Shown here: positions 26,214 to 29,450 of the stretch, one piece after another | Position numbering within the stretch: the stretch's first letter is position 1 | Layout of the letters: each line of letters starts with the position of its first letter | NCBI GenBank assembly: GCA_012521815.1 | Contig: JAAYLR010000103.1 | Coordinates: 1 to 51,035, forward strand | From: Acidobacteriota bacterium | GTDB lineage: Bacteria; Acidobacteriota; Thermoanaerobaculia; Multivoradales; JAGPDF01 | Length of the DNA: 51,035 nucleotides | Reading direction: 5' to 3' | The notes under the pieces: generated by a model | The model's database searches: none | What the model saw: the letters and a program-made list of their open reading frames with translations, nothing else | Told to the model about the DNA's origin: nothing | Program-made: the position numbers and the translations under genes

Positions 26214-26474
26214 TCAGGAGCCGGCCAGGGCGGCGAAGAAGCCGACCGCGCCGCCGATCGCCACCGCGGCGAACGAGGCGACCCAGCGGAGGAACGGCGT
26301 CCGGCAGTCGCGCCACTCCCGGATGACGTAGACGATCCCGACCGGCACGAAGAGGAGGAGCGTGCCGAGCCCCCAGCCGACGCTGCTGCGGAAGGCAAGG
26401 ATCAGGATCTGGATCCCGAAGACGAGCATGCCGATCGAGCCGAGGATGGTGAGAACGGTGCCGAGGATACCCAT
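26214..26474 (-). CDS. Small hydrophobic membrane protein
   Basis: MGILGTVLTILGSIGMLVFGIQILILAFRSSVGWGLGTLLLFVPVGIVYVI... Confidence 0.7.
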   Translation of the reverse strand: MGILGTVLTILGSIGMLVFGIQILILAFRSSVGWGLGTLLLFVPVGIVYVIREWRDCRTPFLRWVASFAAVAIGGAVGFFAALAGS

Positions 26475-26630: not shown

Positions 26631-29450
26631 TCACCAGACGTACTCGCGGGCGATCCGCCGGGTGGCGTGGCCGGCGAGGAGGTGGACGACCCGCACCTTG
26701 CGCACCGTCGCCGGGGAGAGGGAGCCCAGGGGGAGGTAGACGACCCGCTTCCCCTGCCGGGCGGCGTAGCGGGTGAGCCGCGACGGCGGTGCCTCGCGGG
26801 CGACGTAGACGATCAGCCGTTCGGGCGAGTAGTCGATGCCGGCGGCGAGGAGGAGCTCGGCCTTCTCCCGCGCGAAGGCGTAGTCGGGGTCGCGCCACGG
26901 ATCCCAGAGGCGCCCGGGCGGATGGGTGAGCAGGAAGCCGCCGTAGGTGGCGCGGAGGATCCCCGGCCCGACCACCTGCGCGGCGGGGTCGGTGGCGTAG
27001 AACGCCATGTCCGACTCCTGGTGGTGCTCGCCGTGCCAGGTCATCGCGAACGGGAAGCGCTCGTTGGCGCGGTCGCGGTCGAAGATCACGACCACCGCGC
27101 CGGCCGCGCCGGGCGCGCGGCCCCGCTCGTGGACCCAGACCCGGCCGTCCTCGGCCCAGCGGCGGAGCGTCTCGCGCAGATCGACGCCGTCGAGGAGGCT
27201 CGTGGTGAACGGCTCGGAGCGGCTCCGCTCGTCGGCGAGGAGCGAGCGGGCGCGGGCGGCGAGGTGACGGCCGTACTCCTCGACCACGAGGTCCTCGGGA
27301 GGGTAGGAGCAGAGCCCGCCGCCAAGAAACGGCCGCAGCCAGTCGGCGGCGTCCTCCGGCCCTTCCGGGCGCGGCCGGCGCCGCACCGGCAGCGCCACCG
27401 GGCGCTGCTTCGTGCGGCGGAAGCGGAGCCGGAACCGGAGCCGCCGGGTGCCGAGGTCGAGCTCGTCGCCCTCCACCCGGACCGTCGGCAGCTCGGCCTC
27501 CGCCGCCTGCCACGGATAGCAGGTGAGGGCGTCGAACAGCTCCCAGGCGAAGTTGTCGTCGGCGACCCCGCGGCCGGCGACGATCCACTCGTAGAGCCCC
27601 GGGACGAGCCGCCCGCCGAGGCGGGCGCAGCGGCGCGCGAAGTCGAGGAAGAGCCGCCGCTGCCAGGGGGTGAGGCGCTCCTCGGTCGCCTCGTGGTGGG
27701 AGGCGGCGGCGATCCGCCAGGCGATCCGCCCGAGCGCCCACCGGTCCGGAGCAGCCTGTCCCCTCACGAGGGAGCGCACGGCGTGCCGGGCGGCGAAGCG
27801 GGCGACCTCGGCGGCGCGTTCGGCGGCGGTCGCGCTCTCAGCGCCGGCGAGCAGGCGGAGCCCGCCCCGTGCGAGCACCACCCGGGGGGCCACGGTCCGT
27901 TCGAAGGCGGTCTCGGGCGGTGCTCCGCCGTCGCGCCGGAGCTCCCAGACCGCCTGCGCGAGCGGCGGCTCGCGCAGGAGCGCGGGGAGGCTCTCCGGGT
28001 GGAGGTGCCGGACCTCGACCCGGGCGCGGCGGGGGCGGGCGAACGGCGCCGGGGCCGGCCGCGCGAGCTCGCGCCGGAGCCCGGCGAGGTGGGCGGCGCC
28101 GGCGAAGACGAGCAGCTCGCCCGCGCTCCCGAGCGCCGCCCGGGCCCGCTGCACGAGATGCGCCATCCCCGCCTCGCGCCGGGCGTCCTCCTCGCCGTGC
28201 CGGTCGGCCGCGGCCCTCGCCACGAGGTCGAACCAGGCGGCCGGCGCGAGGCTGAAGAGGGCGTACGGATCGGGGACGGGGTCGCGGTGGCGTTCGGTGT
28301 ACGGCAGGTCGGGGTCGACGAGGAAACGGCCCCGGCCGCGCGCGCCGGCCCAGCGGAGCGCCTCGGCGAACGGCTCGCCGGGGGTGGCGAGCCAGACGAG
28401 CGGCTCCTCGCCCTGGTGCTCGGAGACGACGAGCGAGAGGCGCGGCAGCCGGTCGGCGGCGGTCAGCGCGGCGGCGCCGAGCGTCGCGGGGAGCTCGACC
28501 GCCACCGCCGCCGGGTCGAAATGCTCGAGGAGCGCCCGCACGAGCGCCGCGCTCTCGAGTGCCTCGTGCACCACCGGCGCGAGCCGGATCCCCGGCGCGA
28601 CCCGGGGCGCGAGGCGTTCGGGCGCGAGCGCCCGCCGTACCGCCGCGCGGGCGTCGGGCGCCTCGCGGCGGTGGAGCACCTTCATCGCGTAGCGCACCAG
28701 GTTGATGCCGTCGCGCGCGGTGTAGCGCAGATCGGCCGCGTGGGCGGCGCGCAGGAAGCGCAGCACGTAGGCGAGCACCTCCTCGTCGGCGAACGGCACC
28801 CGGGCGCGGAGGATCGCGCGCTCCTCCTCCTCTTCGGGGAAGTCGAGGACGATCTGTGGCATCAGCCGCGAGTGGATGTACTCGGGGATCTCGAAGGTCG
28901 AGGCGTCCTCGTTCATCGTGGTGACGAAGCGGAAGCGCGGGTCGGCGGCGATCCGGATCCCCGCCACGGCGCTCTCGACGTAGCGGCGGTGGTCGAGGAG
29001 CGGGGCGAGCGACGCCCACGACTTCTCGCTCATCCGGTTCCCCTCGTCGAGCACCAGCGCGCCGCCGGCGAGCATCGCGGTGACGAGCGGCGAGGCGACG
29101 TAGCGGAGCCCCCCCTGCGGATCGAGGACCGGCGAGACGAGGAGATCCTCCGGGCGGGTGTCCATCGTCGCCTGCATCACGAAGACCGGCAGCCCGAGCT
29201 CGTGCGCCGCGGCGCAGGCGAGCGTCGTCTTGCCGACGCCGGGCTTGCCGAGCAGCCGCGGGTGGAGCGGCTGATCGCCCTCGTCGACGAGCGTCCAGGC
29301 GGCGAGGAGCGGGAGGAGGACGTCGCGCTGGCCGATCCAGTCGGGGATCTCGGCGAGCGGCCGCGCGAGGTGGAGGCGCACGCCCTCGATCTCGACGGAG
29401 CGGGGGATCGCGGCGGCGTCGTGGGTTCCGGATTCCGGCATCGCCGGCAC
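26631..29450 (-). CDS. 939-aa fusion: MoxR-type AAA+ ATPase, TraB/ChaN-like middle domain, and uncharacterised C-terminal domain
   Basis: Walker A GKPGVGKTT, Walker B GGALVLDEGNRM, sensor FVTTMNEDASTFEI; middle APVVHEALESAALVRALLEHFDPAAVAVELPATL and FAGAAHLAGLRREL; C-term EWIVAGRGVADDNFAWELFDALTCYPWQAA...GEHHQESDMAFYAT. Confidence 0.85.
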   Translation of the reverse strand: MPAMPESGTHDAAAIPRSVEIEGVRLHLARPLAEIPDWIGQRDVLLPLLAAWTLVDEGDQPLHPRLLGKPGVGKTTLACAAAHELGLPVFVMQATMDTRPEDLLVSPVLDPQGGLRYVASPLVTAMLAGGALVLDEGNRMSEKSWASLAPLLDHRRYVESAVAGIRIAADPRFRFVTTMNEDASTFEIPEYIHSRLMPQIVLDFPEEEEERAILRARVPFADEEVLAYVLRFLRAAHAADLRYTARDGINLVRYAMKVLHRREAPDARAAVRRALAPERLAPRVAPGIRLAPVVHEALESAALVRALLEHFDPAAVAVELPATLGAAALTAADRLPRLSLVVSEHQGEEPLVWLATPGEPFAEALRWAGARGRGRFLVDPDLPYTERHRDPVPDPYALFSLAPAAWFDLVARAAADRHGEEDARREAGMAHLVQRARAALGSAGELLVFAGAAHLAGLRRELARPAPAPFARPRRARVEVRHLHPESLPALLREPPLAQAVWELRRDGGAPPETAFERTVAPRVVLARGGLRLLAGAESATAAERAAEVARFAARHAVRSLVRGQAAPDRWALGRIAWRIAAASHHEATEERLTPWQRRLFLDFARRCARLGGRLVPGLYEWIVAGRGVADDNFAWELFDALTCYPWQAAEAELPTVRVEGDELDLGTRRLRFRLRFRRTKQRPVALPVRRRPRPEGPEDAADWLRPFLGGGLCSYPPEDLVVEEYGRHLAARARSLLADERSRSEPFTTSLLDGVDLRETLRRWAEDGRVWVHERGRAPGAAGAVVVIFDRDRANERFPFAMTWHGEHHQESDMAFYATDPAAQVVGPGILRATYGGFLLTHPPGRLWDPWRDPDYAFAREKAELLLAAGIDYSPERLIVYVAREAPPSRLTRYAARQGKRVVYLPLGSLSPATVRKVRVVHLLAGHATRRIAREYVW

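Follow-up and report, generated by a model that had tools for sequence, protein, structure and literature searches.

A widespread MoxR ATPase–partner gene pair without a VWA gene, fused in a single Acidobacteriota genome

Reading frame and ATPase part

The window, the whole stretch of 51,035 nucleotides that was analysed, carries on its reverse strand one frame joining a MoxR-type AAA+ ATPase to a large partner protein (Table 1). A reading-frame check confirmed 939 codons without a stop; the start favoured by the gene caller yields a protein of 936 amino acids. At a G+C content of about 75 %, chance open reading frames of around 1000 codons are common, and a 1001-aa shadow frame lies on the opposite strand, thus the length of the frame proves nothing. 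Its coding status is established by homology, at the level of sequence comparison: genomes of the same order presented 70–75 % identity over the MoxR part and about 57 % over the entire partner part, and a metagenome-assembled genome (MAG) of the same genus contained pieces of 80–88 % identity on two contigs, both ending within the fused gene. The continuous frame of the preliminary description is thereby supported, and the domain order, MoxR AAA+ ATPase (aa 1 to ~270), TraB-like domain (~289–470), helical middle and C-terminal domain (~712–939), proved largely right. The genes around the fused frame are housekeeping genes; just downstream on the same strand lies a gene for an 86-aa membrane protein (26214–26474, reverse strand).

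Table 1 Features of the fused gene (window positions)
Feature	Position	Strand	Remarks
Fused MoxR and partner ORF	26631..29450	(-)	939 aa from GTG 29450; ATG 29441 preferred
MoxR AAA+ ATPase part	28623..29441	(-)	Pfam AAA_5; 24-sequence alignment
Junction	28590..28643	(-)	MoxR tail ..AAVRRAL directly into ..APERLAPRVAPGIR
TraB-like / DUF5682 N-domain	28041..28586	(-)	aa 289-470; hhalign to DUF5682, BFVD TraB match
Mostly helical middle	27525..27905	(-)	aa 516-642; AlphaFold2 model, pLDDT mostly >90
Uncharacterised C-terminal domain	26634..27317	(-)	aa 712-939; beta-rich half, then beta-alpha-beta-alpha-beta-alpha tail (AlphaFold2 model)
Motif DGxDxRETxR	27162..27191	(-)	aa 754-763
Motif WxGEHxxESDMAFY	26997..27038	(-)	aa 805-818
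C-terminal -YVW	26634..26642	(-)	-[YF][IVL]W in homologues

The ATPase part is complete, as had been proposed. Pfam AAA_5 matched aa 66–195 with an E-value of about 5e-19 to 6e-20, and this core contains Walker A (GKPGVGKTT), Walker B (LVLDEGNRM), sensor 1 (TTMNED) and an arginine finger (HSRL), placing it in the MoxR clade of AAA+ proteins. In an alignment of 24 MoxR homologues with a mean column identity of 64 %, these four motifs were invariant. The nearest relatives in the PDB were midasin, NorQ and CbbQ, while YehL is distant (hhalign, E=0.001). The MoxR of this locus is a subfamily of its own.

Distribution of the gene pair and origin of the fusion

GTDB representatives were scanned with the C-terminal two thirds of the protein, which yielded 326 encoding stretches, of which 80 were kept. 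In most of 98 distinct loci MoxR and partner were adjacent, separate genes on the same strand, usually spaced by 2–4 nt or overlapping and rarely divided by one or a few genes. The partner occurred in Thermoanaerobaculia and other Acidobacteriota, in Geobacterales and other Desulfobacterota, in Nitrospirota and in MAGs of Myxococcales. The pair is also present on a Neochlamydia plasmid, where its genes are annotated as 'AAA family ATPase' and 'hypothetical protein'. In a phylogenetic profile, as asked for in the preliminary description, the co-occurrence of MoxR and partner was near-perfect among 396 Acidobacteriota genomes: the C-terminal domain was present in 24 and the matching MoxR (E<=1e-40) in 23, all within the 24. 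The one exception is G353, where the partner gene sits on a 4.6-kb contig whose end is just upstream of the gene. In the partner tree the Acidobacteriota appeared at several separate places among other phyla, a pattern compatible with transfer or old duplication. Three very divergent pairs (L154, L199 in G317 and L198 in G121) still consist of neighbouring genes and have both the TraB-like and the C-terminal domain, which points to a family that is larger and older. An apparently split partner in G121 was rejected, the split being due to masked bases.

The flanks of the pair presented no further conserved gene family across the loci, and none of the flanks of window-type loci contained a YehP or YehQ homologue. 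Lineage-specific neighbours were observed. In the Geobacter group the gene upstream of the pair is ferrochelatase-like in L052, L071, L075, L081, L090, L092, L100, L105 and L109, and a SelB-like gene is situated downstream in many genomes. Zinc-ribbon proteins are encoded upstream of MoxR on the same strand in five Thermoanaerobaculia loci (L034, L036, L038, L046, L047) and are absent from the window. On two IMG/VR contigs, L186 (with MoxR) and L187, the partner gene is located near the contig end beside phage-like genes; these ends are possibly prophage borders.

The fusion had been regarded as the defining architecture. This was refuted by the search for genomes with separate adjacent genes that had been suggested along with it: MoxR and the whole partner stand apart as neighbouring genes in 98 distinct relatives. 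Among the 98 distinct partner sequences whose contig also encodes a MoxR, a second fusion was not found. A 1590-aa frame in L157 was rejected as a further fusion, since it represents G+C-rich non-coding read-through, as do the long frames of other relatives. The fusion is thus not the usual form of the family and is unique to this MAG. With a single genome affected, an assembly or a deletion event at the junction has to be considered. At this position the relatives encode an acidic MoxR tail of about 15 residues, a stop, a spacer and a new partner start; all four are absent from the fused frame, which removes about 100 nt net and keeps the frame intact, and both halves retain all motifs. The junction looks like a genuine deletion. 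It is unlikely that an assembly or consensus artefact joined the two genes of an otherwise real module. Such an artefact would agree with the absence of fusions among the 98 distinct relatives and with the contigs of the same-genus MAG, which break exactly within the fused gene, but the clean, in-frame joint without MoxR tail, spacer and partner start is beyond any one-base error, and the preservation of all motifs in both halves argues against it as well.

A widespread two-gene variant of the MoxR systems is real, its fusion being a single-genome event, and it is undescribed in the literature searched, where no paper was found that names DUF5682 or that pairs MoxR with a TraB domain.

Domains of the partner protein

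The N-terminal domain of the partner had been compared to the TraB/ChaN/EreA-type fold. This relationship was supported by hhalign, HMM and Foldseek results; the domain is not a generic member of this fold, it corresponds to the N-domain of DUF5682/YehM. An alignment of 64 homologues matched six canonical DUF5682 proteins, among them E. coli YehM, with E=5.3e-15 over about 180 columns. The marker residues are H295, E319, R425/E426 and G451-x-x-H454, and H295, E319 and G451–H454, shared with TraB, Tiki and ChaN, are conserved in the 64-homologue alignment. In a Foldseek search of BFVD the structural model found a viral TraB protein (E=5e-3, probability 0.99). The HMM matches of TraB and DUF5682 to relatives were weak: the DUF5682 model (PF18934) matched 25 of 45 relatives at E-values up to 1, with 5e-7 as the best, and did not match the window protein. 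The protein is thus not a full-length DUF5682 member, defined by an above-cut-off match to the 727-position model, and is related to this family through its homologous N-terminal TraB-like domain. For the remaining ~450 residues of the partner hhalign did not detect a counterpart in YehM.

The structure of the partner was predicted by AlphaFold2 from the 64-sequence alignment with an overall pLDDT of 90, superseding a poor model from 13 close relatives (pLDDT 64). The last ~230 residues are the best-conserved part, with a column conservation of about 0.7 compared to about 0.5 elsewhere in the 64 homologues. This portion, a possible client or effector in the preliminary description, had been described as matching no recognised family, and indeed no match was obtained among the Pfam, NCBIfam and PHROGs families tested or among PDB sequences. 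Foldseek of the model against the PDB retrieved nothing (best E-value 0.84) and missed the TraB-like domain too, hence the result argues only weakly for a new fold. A VWA-like fold was rejected (hhalign to YehP-type VWA, E=0.09; no VWA among the PDB folds), as was a derivation of the domain from a piece of canonical DUF5682 (hhalign, E=0.42). The suspected cluster of His, Asp and Glu residues was recovered as W805, G807, E808, H809, E812, S813 and D814, conserved in at least 95 % of the 64 homologues, and its motif resembles, as far as a sequence pattern can indicate, an enzyme or metal site. The DGxD...T core of the other motif, DGxDxRETxR, is retained in most of the distant homologues. Conservation extends to the last residue: 54 of the 64 homologues terminate in tryptophan with the pattern -[YF][IVL]W, and in one sub-clade the aromatic tail is replaced by -DPP or -IPT.

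Proposed function of the module and relation to known systems

MoxR ATPases are generally held to act via VWA partners. The MoxR studied here nearly always neighbours a dedicated partner of ~650 aa that begins with a DUF5682/TraB-like N-domain, continues with a helical middle and ends in a novel C-terminal domain, and no VWA gene is part of the module. The preliminary description had noted that no VWA gene is visible nearby; in agreement, no VWA_2 match was obtained on the contig of the window and no YehP homologue in the flanks of relatives. Without an adjacent VWA-domain partner and without a VWA-like C-terminal domain, the pair is not a MoxR-VWA pair.

We lean, by a small degree, towards a conserved two-gene machine that became fused in this MAG, a VWA-less relative of YehL-YehM-YehP and NorQ-NorD. 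In this machine the partner itself would dock on the ring and link ATP hydrolysis to a client. The MoxR part would form the usual hexamer and the partner would fill the role held elsewhere by the VWA proteins NorD, CbbO and YehP. Docking on the MoxR ring would probably involve the conserved C-terminal -YIW tail, and the ATP-driven movement may be passed either to the TraB-like domain or to a client that this domain binds, and the target would be remodelled or activated. The fusion, a loss of ~100 nt between nearly overlapping genes, supports a physical association of MoxR and partner. In NorQD the VWA partner docks via its C-terminus and a finger in the pore, and NorD without its last two residues no longer co-purified with NorQ; McrC, which has no VWA domain and partners a related AAA+ ring, docks likewise (PMC13036017). 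By analogy, the partner perhaps docks C-terminally, and its strict pairing, conserved aromatic tail and covalent join in one genome make it a good candidate for VWA-free docking. Counting against docking are the -DPP/-IPT tails of one sub-clade; counting against the machine are free VWA proteins elsewhere in the genome, which could act in trans, and the fusion being a single MAG case and a possible artefact. A bolder version, which we regard as tentative, is a distinct MoxR class: a putative TraB-like hydrolase and a new C-terminal fold would replace the VWA co-chaperone, and the AAA+ ring would power or gate a TraB-family enzyme.

An ordinary MoxR-VWA chaperone with its VWA partner encoded elsewhere, and the DUF5682-like protein as an accessory, the role that YehM presumably has next to YehP, would fit the nine VWA_2 matches above cut-off in the rest of the genome and the canonical YehL-YehM-YehP operons of the phylum; the conservation of the pair across several phyla without a linked VWA gene and the distance of its MoxR to YehL render this doubtful. 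The relationship to TraB/ChaN/Tiki could also indicate a maturation of metal or haem cofactors, the ATPase and the ChaN/TraB-like domain loading a metal centre. NorQD inserts iron (PMC13036017), and a ferrochelatase-like gene, a name read from the sequence, lies immediately upstream in ~10 Geobacter-group loci, but this link is limited to one lineage, maybe as plain synteny, with unrelated neighbours in others, and we consider such a function improbable. A defence or conflict system resembling the published MoxR-vWA ternary systems (PMC7159879) is very improbable. The patchy spread (24 of 396 genomes), the plasmid copy in Neochlamydia and the partner genes on two IMG/VR contigs would suit the defence role raised in the preliminary description. 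Against it, the module contains neither vWA nor a variable effector, PADLOC detected no system beyond P-loop noise, defence genes were not noticed among the housekeeping neighbours, 50,697 phage records gave 0 matches, and the C-terminal domain is highly conserved; this claim found no support.

If the two-gene machine exists, a strictly paired VWA-less MoxR system would show which features of a partner are essential, such as C-terminal docking and a pore finger. It would also mean that an AAA+ motor drives a TraB-like enzyme together with a highly conserved uncharacterised domain. Direct tests are feasible, given the natural fusion and the Geomonas and Geobacter hosts, which can be cultivated.

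The natural comparison for the pair is with the canonical YehL-YehM-YehP loci that the same phylum contains. In one of them (L174:4774-8460, G108:C116) a 1228-aa protein, encoded downstream of a YehL-like MoxR, fuses a full-length, YehM-like DUF5682 with a YehP-like VWA_CoxE domain, thus DUF5682 partners do join MoxR-VWA machinery. The E. coli operon YehL-YehM-YehP-YehQ encodes MoxR, DUF5682, VWA_CoxE and SWIM proteins. The pair resembles it in that the gene after MoxR encodes a DUF5682/TraB-like N-domain, and the counterparts are limited to MoxR and this N-domain; VWA and SWIM genes are missing, the MoxR is no close relative of YehL, and no relationship to YehM was detected for the C-terminal two thirds of the partner. 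Proteins of the TraB/PrgY/GumN, Tiki and ChaN groups share the N-terminal xxxH, the ELP glutamate, RRExxMA and GxxH motifs, but here the domain is embedded in a far longer protein, and this protein is coupled to a MoxR ATPase. The MoxR-vWA ternary conflict systems with VMAP, iSTAND, FtsH and beta-propeller components (PMC7159879) also couple MoxR to large dedicated proteins; the pair consists of only two conserved genes, and its partner lacks Pfam domains of vWA, VMAP, iSTAND, FtsH, beta-propeller or effector type. NorQ-NorD and CbbQ-CbbO, besides midasin the nearest solved MoxR-type relatives, likewise pair a MoxR ATPase with a large partner of its own, whose C-terminus is functionally important in NorQ-NorD (PMC13036017); unlike NorD and CbbO, the partner described here has no VWA domain.
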